This document shows, one piece after another, positions 959 to 14,386 of a stretch of DNA of 53,760 bases. Source of the stretch: Ileibacterium valens (lineage in GTDB: Bacteria > Bacillota_I > Bacilli_A > Erysipelotrichales > Erysipelotrichaceae); NCBI RefSeq assembly GCF_001945525.1, contig NZ_MPJW01000189.1, forward strand, positions 1 through 53,760, written 5' to 3'. The position numbers and the translations under genes were made by a program. The number at the start of each line of letters is the position of its first letter. The first letter of the stretch is position 1. Under the pieces are notes generated by a model, which was given only the letters and a program-made list of their open reading frames with translations, had not been told where the DNA came from and searched no databases.

Positions 959-3712
959 GTGAGATATGATGTTTTAAATAAGCTTAAGGAGAAAAGTGTA
1001 AAAGCCGTAGCTAAAGCTGGAAAAGACGATACTTCAAAATACCTTCCGCTTTGGATGCATTTATGCGATACCGCCGGAGTTATGGGAAAGTTGTATGACG
1101 AAAGGTTATCTGCACATGAAAGAAAATTATTTACAGAAGCCATAGGATCAAGTGATAAAGCAAAACAGATTTTTGAACTTGTAGGATTGATGCATGACTT
1201 TGGAAAAGCTAGTTCGATCTTCCAAGCTACGATTCTAAGTAATATTCCTGACTATCGTCGTTTTCCTGTTCAGCTCTTAAAGAGCTCATCGTATGAACAT
1301 TCGGAGAAATCCCACCATACGTGGCTCGGGATGCTGTTGCTGATGGCGCAGGGTTTTTCAGAAAATATTTGTTCTGTTATTGGAGCGCATCATGGACTGA
1401 TTTTAAATGGGAAAGAACTAAGAAATCAAAAAACGGCTGCAAGTAAAATTGATCAACCGTGCTTTGGGTTAGCAAAACTTAAAGATGAGTGGAACCAAAT
1501 CTGGATGGATTTAGCTCAAGAGATTTTGAATGTTGCAGGATTTGAAAGCCCGGAAAATATTCCGCAACTAGATGTTCACCTTTTGATGTTGCTTTCAGGC
1601 ATTCTCGTCGAAGCAGATTGGATTGCCTCTAATGAAGAATACTTTCCTCTGATTTCCGTTTCATCCGATGGATATGTTGGTGACTACCCAAAGCGAATAG
1701 AAGAAGGTTGGCAAAAACTATCCTTTCCAAAAGCCTGGAAGAACCGAAGCCCATTAAAAACAATTTCTGATTTTGAAAAATTATTTGGATTTGATCCAAA
1801 TGATATGCAGTCTGAAGTACTCAAAGTCTGTAACCAGATTCAGGAACCTGGTCTGATGATTATTGAAGCGCCTATGGGGATTGGAAAAACGGAAGCTGCA
1901 CTGACGGCAGCTGATATCTATTCAGCAAAATCCGGGTGTAATGGAGTTTTTTTTGGACAGCCAACTCAGGCTACCGCAAATGGATTATTTCCCCGTTTTC
2001 TTACGTGGACGCAAAAAGAATCAGACTCCGCTCAGTTGATTGTGAAAATGATGCATGGGGGTGCCGGGTTTAATAAGGATTACCAGGAGTTACCTGTAGG
2101 GACTAGCCGAATTAATGACGATGGGAAACAACATTCAATATTTTTGCATGAATGGATGCAGGGAAGAAAGCAGGGAATTTTATCTGATTTTGTCATAGGT
2201 ACAGTGGATCAGGCTTTTATGAGTGTCCTGAAACACAGGCATTTAATGCTTCGTCATGCTGGATTAGCAGGCAAAGTGGTAATTATCGATGAAGTTCATG
2301 CTTATGACAGTTATATGAATGTTTATTTTGATCGAATGCTGTTGTGGCTGGGTTTATACCGAGTACCGGTAATTTTACTTTCTGCAACTTTGCCAATAAA
2401 GAGGCGGAAAGAGATGATTCAATCTTATCTTCAGGGAGTGAATCGAGACTCAAAACTAAAATTAGAATCAATCTCTGAAGCCACTAAACATTCCTATCCA
2501 GCCATACTGTGGACTGATGCGAATCAGGTTTATTCAGCAAACCAAATTATGTCTATTTCCGAAAAAGAAGTATCTATAGAAAAAGCAGAGGTTCAGGATT
2601 GGTCTGAAGTAGGCACAAGGATTTCTCAGATATTGAAAACAGAATTGGTGGATGGAGGATGTGCTGGAGTTGTTGTCAATACAGTCGGCAGAGCACAGCA
2701 AGTGGCTAAGGATTTAATAGAAGCATTTCCCGATCATGAAGTGATCTTGGTACATTCCAGGTTTACCGCATCTGATCGAGCGCTGCTGGAAAAAAAGTTG
2801 ATTCAAAAAGTTGGTAAAAAATCGAAACCAGGTCAACGCAATCGAGTCATTGTTGTGGGAACTCAAGTTATTGAGCAATCTCTAGATATAGATTTTGACT
2901 TTTTGATTACTGAGTTGGCTCCTATCGACCTTCTGCTTCAAAGAATAGGACGTCTCCATCGACATATCAGAGAATGGCGTCCTCTTGGACTCTTAAAACC
3001 CAAGTGTACTGTAATCGTTGGGACAAACAATACGCTTGATCCATCAACTAAGAGAATCTACGAACCTTATATCCAAAAAAAGACTCAGGAGATTTTACCT
3101 GAACGGATAAGCATTCCAAATCAAATTCCTGTGCTTGTAAATGAGGTTTATAAAGAATTTTGTGTTGAGGGCACTAAAACAGGTGTAAAAGAGTTTGAAG
3201 ACATGGTGCTCGCGGAAGATAAAAGCCGTGTGAAGGCTGCGGCACATCTTTTAGGATCTTCTTTATCAAAACTTCAGAGAAAGCATGGTCTATCAGGTTT
3301 GATGGATAAAGGAGATGACATTGATGTTGATGATGCAGCGACTAATTCGGTGCGGGATATTGATCCAGTTATTAGTTGTTTGCTTCTTACGACGAATGAC
3401 ATCGGTGAAATATATCCAGTTGGACAAACCGAATGCGATAAATGTTCTGTTGAATCTAAGCCGCTTTCAAGTGTAGAAGAGATTGCTGCTCAAAAAATTA
3501 GTTTGCCTGCAAGTCTTCCTTTCGAAAAAGGGGTTCAAGAAATTAAGGCTCAAATGCGGCAAAGCAAAATAAAAGCTCTGGATGCGTTTAAATATGAGCT
3601 GTTTTTGATGATGGATAAAAACAATCAAATAGAAGTAGCCGGATATTTGCTGGAATACTCTAAGATCTTTGGACTTACGGCCAGGAAGGTTGCGGATGAA
3701 AATAAGAAATAG
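959..3712 (+). CDS. cas3: CRISPR-associated helicase-nuclease Cas3 (type I-E)
   Basis: The effector nuclease-helicase that Cascade recruits to R-loops to nick, unwind and degrade invader DNA. The order is N-terminal HD nuclease then SF2 helicase. The HD motif is at H79-D80 (LMHDFGKA), followed by HTWLG and GAHHG. Walker A APMGIGKTEAA is near residue 305, the DEAD-like box DEVH is near 444, SATLP follows, and helicase motif VI QRIGRLHRH is near 660. At 917 residues it is full length for fused Cas3. It starts with GTG; AAAGGA lies about 10 bases upstream. It is separated from cse1 by about 430 bases, so it is a separate transcription unit from the Cascade operon. No frameshift or missing core residue is seen. 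Confidence 0.97.
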   Translation: MRYDVLNKLKEKSVKAVAKAGKDDTSKYLPLWMHLCDTAGVMGKLYDERLSAHERKLFTEAIGSSDKAKQIFELVGLMHDFGKASSIFQATILSNIPDYRRFPVQLLKSSSYEHSEKSHHTWLGMLLLMAQGFSENICSVIGAHHGLILNGKELRNQKTAASKIDQPCFGLAKLKDEWNQIWMDLAQEILNVAGFESPENIPQLDVHLLMLLSGILVEADWIASNEEYFPLISVSSDGYVGDYPKRIEEGWQKLSFPKAWKNRSPLKTISDFEKLFGFDPNDMQSEVLKVCNQIQEPGLMIIEAPMGIGKTEAALTAADIYSAKSGCNGVFFGQPTQATANGLFPRFLTWTQKESDSAQLIVKMMHGGAGFNKDYQELPVGTSRINDDGKQHSIFLHEWMQGRKQGILSDFVIGTVDQAFMSVLKHRHLMLRHAGLAGKVVIIDEVHAYDSYMNVYFDRMLLWLGLYRVPVILLSATLPIKRRKEMIQSYLQGVNRDSKLKLESISEATKHSYPAILWTDANQVYSANQIMSISEKEVSIEKAEVQDWSEVGTRISQILKTELVDGGCAGVVVNTVGRAQQVAKDLIEAFPDHEVILVHSRFTASDRALLEKKLIQKVGKKSKPGQRNRVIVVGTQVIEQSLDIDFDFLITELAPIDLLLQRIGRLHRHIREWRPLGLLKPKCTVIVGTNNTLDPSTKRIYEPYIQKKTQEILPERISIPNQIPVLVNEVYKEFCVEGTKTGVKEFEDMVLAEDKSRVKAAAHLLGSSLSKLQRKHGLSGLMDKGDDIDVDDAATNSVRDIDPVISCLLLTTNDIGEIYPVGQTECDKCSVESKPLSSVEEIAAQKISLPASLPFEKGVQEIKAQMRQSKIKALDAFKYELFLMMDKNNQIEVAGYLLEYSKIFGLTARKVADENKK

Positions 3713-3920
3713 ATCAATGATAGAAGTTACTTTAACAAAAGAATTATGAATACAATTCGAGTGCAGTAGAACAATTGGAAAATATTAAATCATTATAACC
3801 TATGTCCAATAGTTAGTGGAATTTTTAAATGGGTAAGGATAATCTGAACAATTGACTTCAGCTTGAATAGGTGATGTTGCTCATGTCAAATAATTTACCT
3901 GTTATTCAGATTAGATAATA

Positions 3921-3950
3921 ATCGGGCTGTTATAATGACAACAGCCCGAT
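3921..3950 (+). promoter_or_regulatory. extended -10 promoter inside a perfect 11-bp-arm palindrome (drives the crRNA-like RNA)
   Basis: The arms ATCGGGCTGTT (3921-3931) and AACAGCCCGAT (3940-3950) are exact inverted repeats around 8 bases. The -10 TATAAT (3931-3936) lies at the centre and is preceded by TGT, an extended -10 element that can work without a good -35. A start point near 3943 would begin the RNA at the first degenerate repeat. A palindrome centred on the -10 suggests a repressor site; the left arm would not be transcribed, so an RNA hairpin alone does not explain it. Confidence 0.6.
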
Positions 3951-4048
3951 TGGCGGGGGTGATCCATATAGGATTAAATGTTTTAAAAAGTTATTCTAAT
4001 TATCCCTGCACAGGGCGGGGAGGGTGGCTGATGCTGCCCTTTTTTTGT
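3943..4048 (+). ncRNA. crRNA-like cas autorepressor RNA (CreR type): degenerate repeat - 33-nt spacer-like segment - degenerate repeat
   Basis: A one-unit degenerate array in the cas3-cse1 gap. The first pseudo-repeat keeps the last 13 bases of the array repeat exactly (GCGGGGGTGATCC, 3953-3965), so it keeps the crRNA 5' handle, plus a short CCCG/CGGG stem. A segment of exactly 33 bases follows (3966-3998), the spacer length of the array. The second pseudo-repeat starts ATTATCCCTGC at 3999 (array: GTTGTCCCCGC) and runs into GCGGGG. It has its own extended -10 promoter and an intrinsic terminator. Counted as one PAM-derived base plus 32, the spacer part (3967-3998) matches the minus strand of the cse1 promoter (4081 down to 4050) at 21 of its first 23 positions. 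The only mismatches there are 6 and 14; 6 is a flipped-out, unread position in Cascade. The RNA is therefore predicted to guide Cascade to repress its own operon. CreR-type regulation is known for type I systems; this instance is inferred from sequence. Confidence 0.85.
4022..4047 (+). terminator. intrinsic terminator of the crRNA-like RNA
   Basis: GGGTGGC/GCTGCCC stem (with two wobble pairs) and a TGAT loop, followed by seven T. It ends the small RNA before the cse1 promoter and also insulates cse1 from upstream transcription. Confidence 0.75.
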
Positions 4049-4049
4049 T

Positions 4050-4084
4050 GGTTATTCATTTTTAAAAAATTTAATTCTATAGTT
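4050..4084 (+). promoter_or_regulatory. cse1 (Cascade operon) promoter and predicted crRNA-like RNA target
   Basis: The predicted promoter is -35 TTCATT (4055-4060), a 17-bp spacer, and -10 TATAGT (4078-4083). The predicted protospacer lies on the minus strand from 4081 down to 4050, with 5' PAM AAC at 4082-4084 (read on the minus strand). Seed positions 1-5 and 7-13 match the crRNA-like RNA perfectly, and matching ends at position 23. Cascade bound here would cover the whole promoter. The mismatched PAM-distal end fits binding without efficient Cas3 cleavage. Confidence 0.75.
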
Positions 4085-4144
4085 AAAAAATAGTTGACGA
4101 GAGATGTTGAAAGCGGTATCTTTAAATTATTAAAAGAGAGGAAG

Positions 4145-5839
4145 GTGATTATCATTAACCACGAAGAATGTAAATTTAATCTGGTGGATATGCCATGGAT
4201 AAAAGTCAGATGGTTAGATGAACGGGTTGAAGAAGTTTCTTTACAGCAAGTTTTGAATGAATCTGATCAGATACTCGAATTAGCTGGAGAGTCAAACACT
4301 CAAAACGCTGCTGTTTTAAGATGGCTGTTAGCAATCACAATCACATTGCTTTATCGATTTTCTGAAGAAGGGGTTCTTAAGCCTCTGGAAGACGAGTCGG
4401 AAGCATTAGAGAGATGGAAGGCGGTATGGGATAACAGAAAATTTTCTGAAAAAGCTGTGAATGATTACCTAAAGAAATTTTACGATAAGTTCTGGCTTAT
4501 ATCAGATGATCATCCATTTATGCAAACAGACGCGGCTTGCAAGGGGACGGAATATGCTGCTGGGAAACTGGATGGATGCCTGTTAGAAAGCAGTAATAAG
4601 CCGAGACTTTTCCAAATGAAATATGGTCAGTTTAAAAATGAGATTGGTTTAGCTGATGCCTCCAGATGGTTGATCAATCTTAATGCCTTCGATGATACAT
4701 CTGCAAAAGCGAGCAAAGAATATAAAGAATCCAGTGAAAAAAAATCACCTGGAGCTGGTTGGCTTGGAAAGCTGGGATTGGTATTTGCAAAGGGAGAAAC
4801 ACTGTTTGAAACTCTGATGTTAAATTCGATACTACTCAATCGAGATTTAGAGTTATACAACTCTCCGTATCCAGCCTGGGAAAATGAGACTCCAAGTTTT
4901 GTAGAACGAAGAGAAATTAATCTACCTGATAATCTTCCGGAATTATTGACACTCTCATCCAGAAGGATTCGCTTAAAAATTAATGAGAATGGGAATGTTA
5001 CTGGATATTTTGTAATTGGTGGGGATTTTTTTCAGAAAGAGAATGCTTTTATTGAACCATTTACTATGTGGAGAAAAAAAGGAGGAAAAAAAGACAAAGC
5101 GGAGTATGTACCGGCGCGGCATACACCAGGAAGACAGATTTGGAGGGATTTCGGAAATATTGTCCCGAAAACAGAGAATATGGACAAAGTACCCGGGATA
5201 ATGAAATGGATTAGCATTCTGGAAACAGAGGATATTCTTCCAGATGATTATTTTATTACTTTGGAAACTCCTTCGGTGTTCTATGGAGATAAAGATTTCT
5301 TTGTTCAAGATTTAGGATCACAAAATATGACTCTATATGGCTCACTTCTGAAAGATAAAGGAGTTGATTGGCGAGAAGAGATTGAAAATCAAATAAGCAA
5401 AATTGATAAGCTCGCTTTTGCAACAGGGATTTTAGCTAAAGAAGTTGCATTATCGGAAGGTAAAACTGGAGAACAGCTAAATGACGATCTAAATTATGGA
5501 AAAAATTTGGCTTATCACGATATTGATCGTCCTTTCCAATTATGGATTTCGCAAATTGCTCCTACTGAAAATAACATAAGTTCGGAAATGTTAGAGCAAG
5601 TTAGAGAGAAATGGGAATCAACAGCTCGAAGGCTTGCTGCTGAACTCCTGGCACAGGTTGTGAAAAAATCAGGAGCTCTCATGAATAAAAATGCTCTGCT
5701 TGGCCGATCAATTAAATCAGAAAATGATGATCAAAAAGTTATATCGTTGCCAGATGCAGAAATGAAGTTTCGACGGATGGTATCAAAAATTTATCCTGTA
5801 AAGTCTGAAATAAAAGGAAAAGATAATGAAAAATCATAA
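4145..5839 (+). CDS. cse1: Cascade large subunit Cse1 (Cas8e/CasA)
   Basis: The large subunit of type I-E Cascade, which reads the PAM, opens the target DNA and recruits Cas3. The N-terminal motif KFNLVDMPWIKVRW is the family's FNLLDEPWIPV-like start, and the long helical C-terminus (about residues 430-560) matches the four-helix bundle. The length is slightly above the roughly 500 residues of the E. coli protein. The start is uncertain: the reading frame opens at TTG 4094, but that has no ribosome site and lies about 4 bases after the predicted transcription start. GAGAGGAAG stands just before GTG 4145, and ATT codons follow at 4148 and 4154. It overlaps cse2 by 14 bases. It is first in the cse1-cas2 operon, and its promoter is the predicted target of the crRNA-like RNA. 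Confidence 0.93.
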   Translation: MIIINHEECKFNLVDMPWIKVRWLDERVEEVSLQQVLNESDQILELAGESNTQNAAVLRWLLAITITLLYRFSEEGVLKPLEDESEALERWKAVWDNRKFSEKAVNDYLKKFYDKFWLISDDHPFMQTDAACKGTEYAAGKLDGCLLESSNKPRLFQMKYGQFKNEIGLADASRWLINLNAFDDTSAKASKEYKESSEKKSPGAGWLGKLGLVFAKGETLFETLMLNSILLNRDLELYNSPYPAWENETPSFVERREINLPDNLPELLTLSSRRIRLKINENGNVTGYFVIGGDFFQKENAFIEPFTMWRKKGGKKDKAEYVPARHTPGRQIWRDFGNIVPKTENMDKVPGIMKWISILETEDILPDDYFITLETPSVFYGDKDFFVQDLGSQNMTLYGSLLKDKGVDWREEIENQISKIDKLAFATGILAKEVALSEGKTGEQLNDDLNYGKNLAYHDIDRPFQLWISQIAPTENNISSEMLEQVREKWESTARRLAAELLAQVVKKSGALMNKNALLGRSIKSENDDQKVISLPDAEMKFRRMVSKIYPVKSEIKGKDNEKS

Positions 5840-6443
5840 GTATATTGCGAAAACAGCAACTGATTCCGTCGCTAAACAGATAGCAAAGTTGGAGGCTATT
5901 GGCGATAGTGGCGTTGGGAAAGCTTTGTTAGCCAATCTAAGACGCGCAGCAGGCCGAGATCTTCAAAAAAATCCGGATATTTGGGGAATGGTTTTAGAGG
6001 ATTTACCTGTACCAGAGTATGATTCGCCAGAAATCATGCCTGAAGAAATGGCTGTTTTTATATCGATGACATTATATGCAGTTGCACAACAGGGGGAATC
6101 ACCTGTGACACATTCAATGCATCAAAAAGATGTTTCTTTTGGTGCTGCATGTGGTCAGTTGGCTGGTTCAGACGAAAATCAACAGGAACGTGTACGAGCT
6201 AAACTCAAAAGATTGCTCGGAGCAAAAAATATGGATGAACTGGCTGAGCAGTTAAGACGAATGATACAGCTCATTAAGGCAGAAGATATAAAACTCGATT
6301 ATGCAAAACTTTGCAATGATTTGTACTGGTACCAATTTACAAACGGCCGGGATAATGTGCAGCTGCAATGGGCCAGAGATTTTACCAGATCAATGAAACA
6401 CAACACTGAAGAGAAAAAAGAAGAGGAAGAAAATAATGGATAA
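5826..6443 (+). CDS. cse2: Cascade small subunit Cse2 (Cas11e/CasB)
   Basis: A 205-residue, all-helical basic protein that fits the small (Cas11) subunit of type I-E Cascade, which forms the belly dimer stabilising the R-loop. The sequence shows the family's features: EEMAVFISMTLYAVAQQG in the first helical half, RARLKRLL-like basic helices in the middle, and KLCNDLYWYQF followed by VQLQWARDF near the C-terminus. The tail is a run of Glu/Lys (KKEEEENNG). The start ATG overlaps the cse1 end by 14 bases and the 3' end overlaps cas7e by 8, so translation is coupled. No anomaly is seen. Confidence 0.95.
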   Translation: MKNHKYIAKTATDSVAKQIAKLEAIGDSGVGKALLANLRRAAGRDLQKNPDIWGMVLEDLPVPEYDSPEIMPEEMAVFISMTLYAVAQQGESPVTHSMHQKDVSFGAACGQLAGSDENQQERVRAKLKRLLGAKNMDELAEQLRRMIQLIKAEDIKLDYAKLCNDLYWYQFTNGRDNVQLQWARDFTRSMKHNTEEKKEEEENNG

Positions 6444-7503
6444 CAAAAGAATTTATGTAGATATTCATGCACTGCAGATAGTACCTCCAAGCTGTATTAA
6501 TAGAGATGATACTGGGGCACCAAAAACTTGTATTTATGGAGGAACGATGCGTTCAAGAGTTTCTTCGCAATCATGGAAGAGATCAATCCGAGAAGAATTT
6601 AAGGAATTATACCCTGATGAAACAGGAATCAGAACTAAAAAAATTGTTGGAATGGTTAAGGATGAGATTTTGCTTCAGGATCCTGCATTTACTGAAGAAA
6701 AAGCTGCTAAAGCAGCTCAGACTGCTCTTACTAACGCCGGTTTAAAGATTAAAGATGCTGAAAAGGGTACAGATGCTCTGATGTTTATGAGCAAGAAACA
6801 GGCTTCGGCTCTGGCAGAACTCGTTGTTAAGGGCGAAAAAGATAAAAAAGAGTATAAAAAGGCACTTGCAGGAAATCCATCTATTGATATGGCTTTGTTT
6901 GGCCGTATGGTAGCGAGCGATCCTTCTTTGAATTATGACGCAGCCTGTCAGGTTAGTCACGCTATTTCTACCCATGAAACGCCCACTGAATTTGATTACT
7001 TCACGGCTGTTGATGACTTGTCTGAAGATACGAGTGGAGCTGGTCATATCGGAATCACAGAGTTTAATTCCTCGACATTATATCGTTATGCAACAATCAA
7101 CGTTATGGAGCTGTACAGGTCATTAGGAATGAAAGCTCCAGAAGCAGTTGGAGCCTTTGTAAAGGCATTTATCAAGAGCATGCCTTCTGGGAAAATAAAT
7201 AGTTTCGCTAATGGAACATTACCATCGTCGGTTTATATTACTGTTAGGGACGATCAGCCAGTGACGTTAGTAGGTGCATTTGAAAAAGCAATTCCTGCCA
7301 GCTCCGAAGGTTATCTCGAGCGATCGGAAGACAGACTAATTCAGCATGCAAATAAGTTAACTTCTTCGTTTGTTAAGGAACCATACAAATCTTTTGTGAT
7401 TGGCGACGGATTAGAAGGTTTGGCAAAGCCAGTTCGTATCGAGGAAGCTGTTGAGAATCTCGAAGAAGAAATTAAAAATCTTCTTGAGAACGGAGGCTGT
7501 TAA
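6436..7503 (+). CDS. cas7e: Cascade backbone subunit Cas7e (CasC)
   Basis: A RAMP-fold backbone subunit; six copies coat the crRNA spacer. The N-terminus YVDIHALQIVPPSCINRDDTGAPK and the TMRSRVSSQSWKRSIRE motif that follows are hallmarks of the Cse4/CasC family. GHIGITEFNSSTLYRYATINV and the C-terminal region with NGTLPSSVYITVR also fit. At 355 residues it has the normal length. The upstream AGAGGAAG lies inside the cse2 coding end. The stop TAA shares its last base with the cas5e start codon. Confidence 0.97.
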   Translation: MDNKRIYVDIHALQIVPPSCINRDDTGAPKTCIYGGTMRSRVSSQSWKRSIREEFKELYPDETGIRTKKIVGMVKDEILLQDPAFTEEKAAKAAQTALTNAGLKIKDAEKGTDALMFMSKKQASALAELVVKGEKDKKEYKKALAGNPSIDMALFGRMVASDPSLNYDAACQVSHAISTHETPTEFDYFTAVDDLSEDTSGAGHIGITEFNSSTLYRYATINVMELYRSLGMKAPEAVGAFVKAFIKSMPSGKINSFANGTLPSSVYITVRDDQPVTLVGAFEKAIPASSEGYLERSEDRLIQHANKLTSSFVKEPYKSFVIGDGLEGLAKPVRIEEAVENLEEEIKNLLENGGC

Positions 7504-8192
7504 TGGCTTATACTCTGCTTCTCAGGTTGGCTGGGCCAATGCAAAGCTGGGGATCAGATAGTCATTTCGAAATACGTAAAACTGATCAGTATCCTACAAA
7601 AAGCGGCGTTATTGGAATGCTAGCGGCAGCTCTTGGCCGAAGTAGAGATGCGGATATATCTGATCTTAAAAAACTGGATTTTGGCGTACGGGTTGATCAG
7701 CCAGGAGAAACCATAACGGATTTCCATACAGCCCGAAAAGATTCTAAAACTTCTTACATTACCCGCCGCAGTTATCTCTCGGATGCAGTTTTTGTCGTAG
7801 GGATTTCTTCAGATGATCGAAGTTTGATTGAAAAAATTGAGTATGCCTTGAATCATCCTGCTTACCCACTATTTTTAGGACGAAGATCTTGTCCACCTGT
7901 TCAGCCGCTTACGCTCGGTGTTAAGGATGATGGTTTGAAAGTAGCTTTATTGAAAGAACCATGGCACGGCAGCTCTGATATTTATAAGAATTCAGTCGGC
8001 CAGGAACAGTTGAAGTTGGTTCTGGAAGGAAGAGGAGCTGGGGTTATTCGAAGAGTAAATGATAGTCCGTCGAGCTTCGACTTTCATGATAGACAATATG
8101 AATCCAGATTGATTTCAGAAATCATGGTTCCCAAAGTAAACACAGAAAATACCGATCATGATGTTATGAGTTTTTTGGAGGATTTGGAATGA
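7503..8192 (+). CDS. cas5e: Cascade subunit Cas5e (CasD)
   Basis: A RAMP protein that binds the 5' handle of the crRNA and sits next to Cse1. The diagnostic N-terminal motif LLLRLAGPMQSWGSDSHF is present, with KSGVIGMLAAALGRSR (the typical PTKSGVIGLLAAALG block), FHTARKD, and FLGRRSCPP in the second half. At 229 residues it has normal length. Its ATG overlaps the cas7e stop by one base, and its end overlaps the cas6e ATG (ATGA arrangement), so the genes are tightly coupled. Confidence 0.97.
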   Translation: MAYTLLLRLAGPMQSWGSDSHFEIRKTDQYPTKSGVIGMLAAALGRSRDADISDLKKLDFGVRVDQPGETITDFHTARKDSKTSYITRRSYLSDAVFVVGISSDDRSLIEKIEYALNHPAYPLFLGRRSCPPVQPLTLGVKDDGLKVALLKEPWHGSSDIYKNSVGQEQLKLVLEGRGAGVIRRVNDSPSSFDFHDRQYESRLISEIMVPKVNTENTDHDVMSFLEDLE

Positions 8193-8815
8193 TTCTGACT
8201 AGATTAAAACTTGATACGAAGTTACGGAAAACAATGCAGGCTCTAAATAATCCAAATATATTTCATGGGGCGATTGAACAGGCAAGAAAAGGACCTAGAA
8301 CTCGTTTGCTCTGGAGACTTGATTCGATTAATAATCAAAAATATCTTTTGATATTAAGCAGCGAACCATTGGAAACCGCAAATCTGGAGAAGCAATTTGG
8401 ATATCCAAATGATAAAGCTGAATCAAAATCATATGATGCATTTTTGAATAGTATTCAAAACGGAAGCTTATGGAATTTTCGATTGGTTGCAAATCCCTGC
8501 TACTCAATTCCAAGGGATGGTGAGAGAGGGAAATTGATGGCTCATGTAACTATCCCCCAGCAAACAGAATGGTTGCGAAAAAAAGAAGTGCCCTGTGGCT
8601 TTGAATTAGACCATAATTATCGGGTTACCAATAGCGGGTGGATTTCCTTTAAGAAAAAAGACGGAGGACCGAATGTTACGATTCGAACCGCTGCTTATGA
8701 AGGGGTTCTGAAAGTTACAGACAAAGAATTGTTTAAAAAAACATTAATCGATGGAATAGGACGTGGAAAGGCTTATGGATTAGGACTTTTAACTGTCGTT
8801 CCCTTTAGAAAGTGA
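8189..8815 (+). CDS. cas6e: crRNA-processing endoribonuclease Cas6e (CasE)
   Basis: Cleaves the repeat hairpin of pre-crRNA and stays bound to its 3' stem. The catalytic-type histidine is at residue 26 (NIFHGAIE), as in E. coli CasE. The C-terminal glycine-rich motif GIGRGKAYGLGLLTV is present. At 208 residues it is full length. It should cut at the 3' base of the CCCCGC/GCGGGG stem, leaving a handle ending GTGATCC. That same handle is preserved in the degenerate repeat at 3953-3965, so the crRNA-like RNA could be processed by this enzyme. Confidence 0.96.
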   Translation: MILTRLKLDTKLRKTMQALNNPNIFHGAIEQARKGPRTRLLWRLDSINNQKYLLILSSEPLETANLEKQFGYPNDKAESKSYDAFLNSIQNGSLWNFRLVANPCYSIPRDGERGKLMAHVTIPQQTEWLRKKEVPCGFELDHNYRVTNSGWISFKKKDGGPNVTIRTAAYEGVLKVTDKELFKKTLIDGIGRGKAYGLGLLTVVPFRK

Positions 8816-8821
8816 TCTTTT

Positions 8822-9775
8822 ATGTCTGATGAAATTGATCAAAAAAGGAAGGGAGCGCCCAAGCCAGAACTGCAGGAACTTCCAAGAGTCATTGATAGAC
8901 TTTCGTTTATATACCTTGAACATGCCAGGATTACTAAGAAGGATAGTGCTTTAGTAGTTGAGGATAAGGAAGGGATAATTCGCATACCATCTCATTCATT
9001 TTTAGTGATTATTTTAGGACCCGGTATAAATCTAACCCATCGCGCTATGGAACTGATTGCCGATTCGGGGGTTACATTTGTCTGGACTGGAGAAAGTGGC
9101 CTTAAGTATTATGCCCACGGCAGAGCATTGAGTAAGAATTCAGCGTTCCTGATTCAGCAAGCTAAAGTTGTTTCTAATCCCAGACTGCATCTGGAAGCAG
9201 TTAGGAAAATGTACCAGCTTAGATTCCCTGATGAGATTTTAGAGGGGTTGACACTCCAACAGCTCAGAGGGAAAGAAGGAAGCAGGGTAAAAAAGATATA
9301 CTATGAAGAATCTGTAAAATGGGGTGTCCCATGGCAGGGACGAAACTATAATCCCAATGACTTTAAATCAGGTGATCCGGTTAATCGCGCTTTATCTGTT
9401 GGTAATGCATGTCTGTATGGTATTGTCACTGCAGTAATCTGCGCTTTGGGTTTATCTCCTGGCCTGGGCTTGATTCATACTGGTCTGGAGCTTTCGCTGG
9501 TTTATGATATTGCAGATCTTTATAAAGCCGAAATTGTTATTCCGGAAGCTTTTAGGCTGGCTTCTGAAAGTTCTTTGAATATCGAAACACGAATGCGAAA
9601 AGTGGTGAGGCAACTCTTACATGAAAATAAAATAATAAGACGAATGGTTAGAGATATCGGTAATGTTTTTGATGTGAAAGAGCTGGATTGTGATGCCGAG
9701 TCACTTAGGCTCTGGGACGGCAAACGCGAAAGTAAACAAGCAGGAATTCAATATTTGCCTAGAGATGAGAAGTAA
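8822..9775 (+). CDS. cas1: CRISPR integrase Cas1 (type I-E)
   Basis: The integrase of the Cas1-Cas2 spacer-acquisition complex. The active-site residues expected for Cas1e are all visible: E152 (LRGKEGSR), H219 (LGLIHTG), and D229/D232 (VYDIADLYK). The N-terminal beta domain ends with VTFVWTGESGLKYYAHGR. At 317 residues it is full length. It lies 6 bases after cas6e and shares one base with the cas2 start. The intact catalytic set suggests the array can still gain spacers. Confidence 0.97.
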   Translation: MSDEIDQKRKGAPKPELQELPRVIDRLSFIYLEHARITKKDSALVVEDKEGIIRIPSHSFLVIILGPGINLTHRAMELIADSGVTFVWTGESGLKYYAHGRALSKNSAFLIQQAKVVSNPRLHLEAVRKMYQLRFPDEILEGLTLQQLRGKEGSRVKKIYYEESVKWGVPWQGRNYNPNDFKSGDPVNRALSVGNACLYGIVTAVICALGLSPGLGLIHTGLELSLVYDIADLYKAEIVIPEAFRLASESSLNIETRMRKVVRQLLHENKIIRRMVRDIGNVFDVKELDCDAESLRLWDGKRESKQAGIQYLPRDEK

Positions 9776-10629
9776 TGGTTGTTATTACGATTTCAAAATG
9801 TCCTGCTTCTTTAAGAGGTGACTTATCAAAATGGTTTTTTGAAGTCTCTCAAGGTGTTTATGTTGGAACAGTTTCGCAGCGAGTCAGAGAAAATGTCTGG
9901 GACAGAATAGAAAAAAGTGTTAAGTCTGGTAGAGCGGTTCTCGTTTATTCTTGTCACGATGAACAAAAGTTAAAGTTTTTGGTTTGCGGCGAGAGTAATT
10001 GTAAGCCTATAGATTATGACGGTATTGAAATCATGAAACACTTAAAGCGCATTGAGAGTTCTGAAACAAAAGATACCTCAAATTTATTGAGTTCGGCTGG
10101 TCTTTTTCCGGATGGAAAATTTGTCGCTTTGGATATTGAGACCACTGGATTAGATTCATCAAAGGATTTGATCACTGAAATTGCTGCTGTGAAATTTGAA
10201 GAAAGTGGGGAAGTGGTAGATCGGTTTAAAAGATATATTTGTATCGACATATCAGTACCAGATAACATTCAAAAATTAACTGGTATTACTGATGAGTTAT
10301 TGAAAAACGAAGGTGTTCAATTAGAAACGGCATTAAACGATTTGCAGATGTTTGTTGAGGAATTGCCAATAGTATGTCACAATGCAGAATTTGATATGGC
10401 ATTTTTAAAAAACAAGGTATCTCAAGAATCTGAAATTTTAAAAACCAATCAAGTAGTAGATACATTAAATCTCTCCAGGAAGTTAATTAAGGATGTACAG
10501 AATTATAAACTACCTACATTAGCAAAATATTTTTCTATCGCTCATGCAGATTCGCATGAAGCATTGGTTGATGCGGAAGTAACGGGACAATTGGTAGCAA
10601 AACTAAAGATTTTAGAGATAAATAAATAA
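9775..10629 (+). CDS. cas2: Cas2e fused to a DnaQ-like DEDDh exonuclease
   Basis: A two-domain protein. Residues 1 to about 95 are Cas2e (VVITISKCPASLRGDLSKWF, GVYVGTVSQRVRENVW), the bridge of the integrase complex. Residues 112-284 are a DnaQ-family 3'-5' exonuclease with a complete catalytic set: D120 and E122 (ALDIETTG), D207 (HNAEFD), H261 and D266 (HEALVDAE). Such fusions are known in some Firmicute type I-E systems, where the exonuclease trims prespacer 3' ends. A normal Cas2e is about 95-100 residues, so this is about three times that length. It is the last gene of the cas operon; the array begins 31 bases after its stop. Confidence 0.97.
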   Translation: MVVITISKCPASLRGDLSKWFFEVSQGVYVGTVSQRVRENVWDRIEKSVKSGRAVLVYSCHDEQKLKFLVCGESNCKPIDYDGIEIMKHLKRIESSETKDTSNLLSSAGLFPDGKFVALDIETTGLDSSKDLITEIAAVKFEESGEVVDRFKRYICIDISVPDNIQKLTGITDELLKNEGVQLETALNDLQMFVEELPIVCHNAEFDMAFLKNKVSQESEILKTNQVVDTLNLSRKLIKDVQNYKLPTLAKYFSIAHADSHEALVDAEVTGQLVAKLKILEINK

Positions 10630-10660: not shown

Positions 10661-13914
<3,254 letters not shown>

Positions 13915-14119
13915 TTTTCATTACTTATAAGATCCAGACAAAATGTCTTTAGGTATATGTGACTGAATTGAAGTAACAGAATTGTCTTAAATTTGTAATG
14001 GAAGGATTGATGAGTAGATATACAAAAAAAAAGAGAATATGTGAGCCCCAAGGGATTAATATTTTATGATTTAAGGATTGTCATATTGACGGTACTCTAA
14101 ATAATGTTTATGGAGCAAT

Positions 14120-14143
14120 AAAAAAACGGTGCATAAGCACCGT
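14120..14143 (-). terminator. intrinsic terminator of the tRNA-Ile/Ala transcript (right copy)
   Basis: Same ACGGTGC/GCACCGT stem and T-run as the left copy, on the minus strand, directly downstream of tRNA-Ala. Confidence 0.85.
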
Positions 14144-14159
14144 GTCCTTATCAAAAAAA

Positions 14160-14235
14160 TGGTGGAGCGTAGGAGGATCGAACTCCTGACCCCCTGCGTG
14201 CAAAGCAGGTGCTCTCCCAGCTGAGCTAACACCCC
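14160..14235 (-). tRNA. tRNA-Ala (TGC), right copy
   Basis: Identical over all 76 bases to the gene at 541-616, with anticodon TGC and an encoded CCA. The cloverleaf is intact. Confidence 0.97.
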
Positions 14236-14262
14236 ACATATAAAATATAAGAAGCAAAGAAA

Positions 14263-14339
<77 letters not shown>

Positions 14340-14357
14340 ATTTCTTAATGCCTGATT

Positions 14358-14386
14358 AATATATCAGATCGAAAGAATGTTGGCAA
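14358..14386 (-). promoter_or_regulatory. sigma-A promoter of right tRNA-Ile/Ala unit
   Basis: Minus-strand -35 TTGCCA (14381-14386), 17-bp spacer, -10 TATATT (14358-14363). The same -35 hexamer precedes a tRNA-Glu gene at 40485. This is probably the ancestral promoter, because the -35 lies on the non-CRISPR side. Confidence 0.75.

Follow-up and report, generated by a model that had tools for sequence, protein, structure and literature searches.

A predicted CreR-type mini-CRISPR between cas3 and cse1 of a type I-E CRISPR-cas locus in Ileibacterium valens

The type I-E locus and its array

The window analysed here, a 53,760-nucleotide stretch of Ileibacterium valens DNA, holds a complete type I-E system, every cas gene of which was identified by NCBIfam models, together with its cognate array (Table 1). 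The array repeat is GTTGTCCCCGCGTATGCGGGGGTGATCC, and the first base is T or C in 45 of the 52 array spacers, which fits an AAY PAM at acquisition, provided that this base derives from the PAM as it does in E. coli. Comparison of the array spacers with phages gave no usable protospacers; the apparent matches were set aside, as the phage or metagenomic records concerned probably contain CRISPR repeats. The PAM was deduced solely from the first spacer base and from the creR targets described below.

The cse1 gene lacks an ATG start (4141–4156), the candidates being GTG at 4145 or ATT at 4154, behind AAGGTGAT, and a non-ATG start may in itself restrict Cse1 synthesis. The cas2 gene (9775–10629) is fused to a DEDDh (DnaQ-like) exonuclease, with a comparable fusion length in most relatives within the family. 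The final array repeat (13834–13863) is degenerate, GTTGTCCCGCGTATGCGGGGTTTTC, and resembles an intrinsic terminator. A 250-nt direct repeat, 98% identical between its copies at 498–747 and 14117–14366, flanks the CRISPR-cas locus; both copies carry the same tRNA-Ala(TGC)–tRNA-Ile(GAT) pair, and the repeat may have been left when the whole locus was inserted or recombined.

Table 1. Features of the CRISPR-cas locus and of the predicted creR element, in window coordinates.
Feature	Position	Strand	Basis and remarks
cas3	959–3712	+	NCBIfam models; 5′ of the element, outside the predicted loop
Predicted creR promoter	3907–3936	+	Promoter scoring; weak –35 CAGATT (3907–3912), 18 bp, extended –10 TGTTATAAT (3928–3936)
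Perfect inverted repeat	3920–3951		12-bp arms AATCGGGCTGTT ... AACAGCCCGATT; overlaps the creR –10
psiR1	3938–3965	+	Shares 16/28 bases with the array repeat; the 13 at the 3′ end are exact, GCGGGGGTGATCC at 3953–3965
Pseudo-spacer	3966–3998	+	33 nt: one base (A) and a 32-nt guide at 3967–3998, TATAGGATTAAATGTTTTAAAAAGTTATTCTA
psiR2	3999–4026	+	15/28 identical to the array repeat, ungapped
Intrinsic terminator	4017–4046	+	T7 run; also given as 4017–4044
Guide target	4050–4081	–	Pairs at 1–5, 7–13, 15–23 (4081–4059)
PAM	4082–4084	–	Minus-strand AAC, plus-strand GTT
Best predicted cse1 promoter	4094–4122	+	TTGACG-17-TATCTT, score 10.3
cse1/casA	4145–5839	+	TIGR02547, 98.2 bits; GTG start assumed; first gene of the predicted regulated operon
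cse2, cas7, cas5, cas6e, cas1, cas2	5826–10629	+	NCBIfam models; downstream operon genes
Cognate CRISPR array	10661–13863	+	53 repeats, 28-nt repeat, 33-nt spacing, 61-nt period

A mini-CRISPR element in the cas3–cse1 gap

The gap between cas3 and cse1 contains a mini-CRISPR with two pseudo-repeats, psiR1 and psiR2 (together 3938–4026), and with its own predicted promoter and terminator. The –35 of this promoter scores poorly, and we infer that the creR RNA starts near 3943; the promoter scoring matrices are approximate. The 5′ handle supplied by psiR1 is GUGAUCC followed by A. The hairpin of psiR1 is weak, amounting to 4 bp or to an interrupted fold that is not better than those of shuffles. 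By sequence alone psiR2 is also weak, with 1.75% of background windows reaching its local score. It forms the stem-loop TCCCTGC-ACAGG-GCGGGGA (4003–4021), with 7 bp in exact array register (offset 37), and a comparable stem is present at offset 36–39 in eight of the 11 related elements considered below. The arrangement is that of a crRNA-like unit beside its own CRISPR-cas locus, psiR1 carrying a 5′ handle and psiR2 a Cas6 hairpin; it is not that of an ordinary array unit, given how far both pseudo-repeats diverge from the array repeat (Table 1). When the whole RNA was folded, the minimum-energy structure paired psiR1 with psiR2; it was set aside because repeats pair mutually in any array. An Rfam scan of 3700–4200 returned no family.

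The guide matches a single site upstream of cse1

Against the minus strand (4081–4050), the guide matches at 21 of positions 1–23, with mismatches at 6 and 14, and within positions 24–32 it matches only at 27 and 28. A PAM is thus combined with limited complementarity (seed 1–5, 7–11) to the element's own cas upstream region, as in a CreR. When the guide is shuffled with its dinucleotides preserved, a full seed plus AAY PAM turns up in this region at a frequency of 0.0005; among 1265 real array spacers there is no such case. Across the 2.74-Mb genome (291 contigs), the combination of AAY, seed and position 13 occurs at one site, that upstream of cse1.

A first-pass annotation of this DNA had described the extended –10, psiR1 with its 13 exact 3′ bases, the 33-base segment, psiR2 and the terminator, as well as the 21/23 match, its mismatches at 6 and 14, the two matches in 24–32 and the AAC PAM; all of these coordinates and counts were recomputed and hold. 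Its placement of the target over both hexamers of the cse1 promoter did not stand, as this fits only a weak candidate (TTCATT/TATAGT, 4055–4083, score 6.1). That candidate was dropped for the promoter in Table 1, the –35 of which starts 9 bp past the PAM, so that the target sits just upstream.

Counterparts with other guides in type I-E loci

Elements of this kind were found in 11 of 110 type I-E loci with the cas3 start covered: in the window, in a second genome (G003), in Candidatus Ornithomonoglobus, Kallipyga massiliensis, Buchananella hordeovulneris, Peptoniphilus duerdenii, Specibacter cremeus, Mogibacterium pumilum and Ndiopella massiliensis, and in two Peptoniphilaceae-family genomes. 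The first scan, of 88 loci and with no PAM required, returned nine non-array elements with a 10/10 seed, all nine with AAC or AAT as the PAM. For these nine the summed shuffle expectation is 0.00175, and 1265 true array spacers run against their regions yielded a single AAY match. Forty further loci were added from two families around L087 and L098. A Cas7 scan of genome contigs gave no matches with a single sequence and succeeded with an alignment; a class-level search gave no further locus. The guides differ in all 11 elements, each pairing with its own cas upstream region at 1–5 and 7–11, and the PAM is AAC in nine and AAT in two. All but those of the window and G003 lie upstream of cas3. 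Elements at L079, L091, L101 and L107 were discarded as second arrays. At 1262–1330 of L180, in a Peptoniphilaceae-family genome, lies a possible twelfth creR with an AAT PAM; its seed is 9/10, and it was left out of the 11.

G003 belongs to the same family as the window, with a Cse1 that is 42% identical. Its cas3–cse1 gap contains a pseudo-repeat with the same handle, GTGATCC, and a stem that is fully changed yet paired (ACCTGA/TCAGGT). The G003 guide, TTAAAGATCGA..., faces the cse1-upstream site TTAAATATCGA with an AAC PAM, the mismatches within 1–13 falling at 6 and 12, and the combination of AAY, seed and position 13 is likewise single-site in the G003 genome. A Cse1 search gave eight genomes of the family, the window's own included, and of these only the window's and G003 show the element. 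Co-variation of guide and promoter in relatives, which the first-pass annotation had put forward as a check, is therefore borne out by G003, where the same position holds a new guide and a new matching target, and more widely by the 11 loci, where every guide, unrelated to the others, pairs with its own cas upstream region beside AAC or AAT.

As the elements were selected on positions 1–5 and 7–11 only, the remaining positions could be compared with chance. Position 6 matches in 5 of the 11, position 12 in 2, position 14 in 8 and position 13 in all 11, against an expectation for position 13 of 0.32 per locus (P=4e-6); other positions outside the selection are at about chance level. Every sixth base is flipped out in Cascade (PMC5904413), and mutation has shown that CreA requires exactly positions 1–5 and 7–11, not 6 or 12 (PMC8501985). 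A copied DNA stretch would not omit position 12 yet keep 13, so the pattern speaks for Cascade pairing, of which skipping 12 and keeping 13 appears to be a signature.

Minus-strand targets are also found in L077, L099 and L011 (the G003 locus), where a strong promoter (rank 1 or 2) lies 8 bp past the PAM; the spacing from PAM to –35 is 9, 8, 8 and 8 bp in the window, L011, L077 and L099, respectively. Cascade in this subgroup would sit upstream, on the side of the UP element, and abut the –35 with its PAM end. The target instead overlies the core promoter or start region in L062, L087, L098, L161 and L179. At three of these (L062, 2297–2420; L098, 2203–2330; L179, 1062–1145) the target is at the creR promoter or start, upstream of cas3, which suggests that creR and cas3 may share one autoregulated transcript. 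The rules predicted from these comparisons are an AAC or AAT PAM, pairing at positions 1–5, 7–11 and 13, and, in the one subgroup, a PAM 8–9 bp from the –35. Sequence comparison alone would thus have RNA-guided type I-E cas autorepression recurring in Erysipelotrichaceae, Peptoniphilaceae, other Bacillota and Actinomycetota, in about one-tenth of the loci examined, with guides replaced and the pairing rule retained.

Predicted autorepression and its alternatives

The layout, the single genomic target, the co-variation, the position 12/13 pattern and the shared PAM-to-–35 spacing all support the reading already proposed in the first-pass annotation, and from the sequence we consider it very probable that the element is a CreR-type, cas-regulating mini-CRISPR of this type I-E system. 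The weak psiR1 hairpin, the poor creR –35 and the presence of the element in only two of the eight same-family genomes count against it. Its RNA would be transcribed from the creR promoter and cleaved by Cas6e at both pseudo-repeats, which would leave a crRNA-like guide bearing the handle GUGAUCCA. Cascade loaded with this guide would bind just upstream of the cse1 promoter via the AAC PAM and partial pairing, and the PAM (Cse1) end of the bound complex, 9 bp from the –35, would keep RNA polymerase off. The predicted outcome is lower expression of cse1-cse2-cas7-cas5-cas6-cas1-cas2, a negative feedback loop; because cas3 lies upstream of the element, the loop should govern cse1–cas2 and not cas3. 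Release from repression would come, as in published CreRs, from competing crRNAs or anti-CRISPR proteins.

In E. coli, off-target Cascade binding with short matches left gene expression unchanged, and promoter repression dropped strongly at six or more PAM-distal mismatches (PMC5904413), which counts against strong repression by partial matches in that species. Robust interference and priming in E. coli need 18–25 bp, and mismatches over positions 19–32 abolish both (PMC5904413); on this basis, the end of pairing at position 23 should curb Cas3 recruitment and self-cleavage. The window guide has the longest PAM-proximal match of the 11, and this member would therefore stand nearer the Cas3 threshold than the others, its pairing attaining the length at which Cas3 licensing begins. 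The same two facts would favour an alternative in which the long pairing (21/23) lets Cas3 act, self-priming being served or caused in place of stable repression. However, position 14 and nearly all of 24–32 are mismatched, none of the ten other guides pairs so far, and a site cut by the cell's own Cas3 would be lethal or soon lost; we hold this alternative to be very improbable.

Insofar as CreA and CreR are alike in anatomy and seed logic, the element could also be a CreA antitoxin of the CreTA/CrePA kind, through which Cascade silences a toxin and not the cas operon. The sole genomic seed-plus-PAM site is nevertheless upstream of cse1, the gene downstream of the target being cse1 itself, and the 3712–4094 gap contains no toxin ORF of at least 80 aa, although a very small RNA toxin escapes a sequence search; the likelihood of a CreA is slight. 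Chance has to be weighed as well, since guide and target are both A+T-rich and the pseudo-repeats share only 16/28 and 15/28 bases with the array repeat, as would suit a degenerate array relic beside AT-rich DNA that resembles its spacer by accident. The shuffled-guide rate and the single genomic site tell against such a relic, and co-variation leaves it strongly disfavoured, the same arrangement recurring with other guides in ten more loci and position 13 being matched in 11 of 11; its probability appears negligible. Barely any probability attaches to a decoy RNA that, like Racrs, occupies Cas6e or Cascade without a DNA target: the retained 5′ handle and Cas6 hairpin would allow binding of Cas proteins without one, but a decoy requires no guide–target match, whereas matches co-evolve in 11 loci, and the element is host-borne, with two pseudo-repeats, and lies within a cas locus.

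An inverted repeat over the creR –10

The predicted creR element of the window is overlapped at its –10 by a perfect inverted repeat, the right arm of which is the 5′ half of psiR1. Its counterpart in G003 is 9 bp, and the other elements have little or none. In a computed fold of read-through RNA, the inverted repeat pairs with the 5′ half of psiR1 at –21.6 kcal/mol. The genome was searched for a second copy of the palindrome as a shared operator, and none was found. The inverted repeat is a candidate operator, or a candidate read-through lock on psiR1. A joint reading, which we think unlikely, would place only cse1–cas2 under the loop, with cas3 decoupled, and have the inverted repeat lock psiR1 in RNA read through from cas3. 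Were it true, a Cascade-blocking anti-CRISPR would raise the Cascade:Cas3 ratio, and guides would arise only from RNA begun at the creR promoter.

Comparison with known systems

The element resembles a self-targeting type I-E array spacer in its handle, guide length and 61-nt register; it differs in having degenerate repeats, a single unit and its own predicted promoter and terminator, and in a partial match that ends before the PAM-distal end. With CreA of CreTA (PMC8501985, PMC9458426) it shares two diverged pseudo-repeats and a seed at 1–5 and 7–11; psiR1 of CreA retains the 5′ (Cas5) handle, and psiR2 loses the handle and keeps the Cas6 part (PMC9458426). Unlike that of CreA, the target here is upstream of cse1 and not at a toxin promoter, and the search of the gap found no adjacent toxin ORF. 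Racr, a phage RNA anti-CRISPR (PMC10651486), is likewise a repeat-like RNA outside an array that engages Cas proteins, as is predicted for the element, but Racrs are phage-borne solitary repeats, whereas the element is host-borne and its guide is directed to its own operon. Self-repression by Cas9 (PMC11078563, cited in PMC13131331) is a natural effector-guided autorepression with release by anti-CRISPRs, both predicted for the element; it belongs to type II and uses the single effector Cas9, in contrast to the Cascade predicted here.

The closest agreement is with CreRs, for which PMC13131331 and PMC12737573 both cite Liu et al. 2023 (Cell Host Microbe, doi 10.1016/j.chom.2023.08.005). According to those two reviews, CreRs autorepress types I-B, I-E and V-A via partial promoter complementarity. 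The element is like the CreRs described there in being a mini-CRISPR within the cas locus, with degenerate repeats and limited complementarity to a cas promoter; those CreRs have no toxin, and the gap here showed no ORF of at least 80 aa. Relative to the same descriptions, what is particular to the window is the position between cas3 and cse1 with cas3 outside the loop, the match extending to position 23, the PAM 9 bp upstream of the –35, and the 12-bp inverted repeat overlapping the creR –10 and psiR1. On that published record, CreR autorepression in type I-E has already been described, and the element, as predicted here, is a further CreR in a new host.
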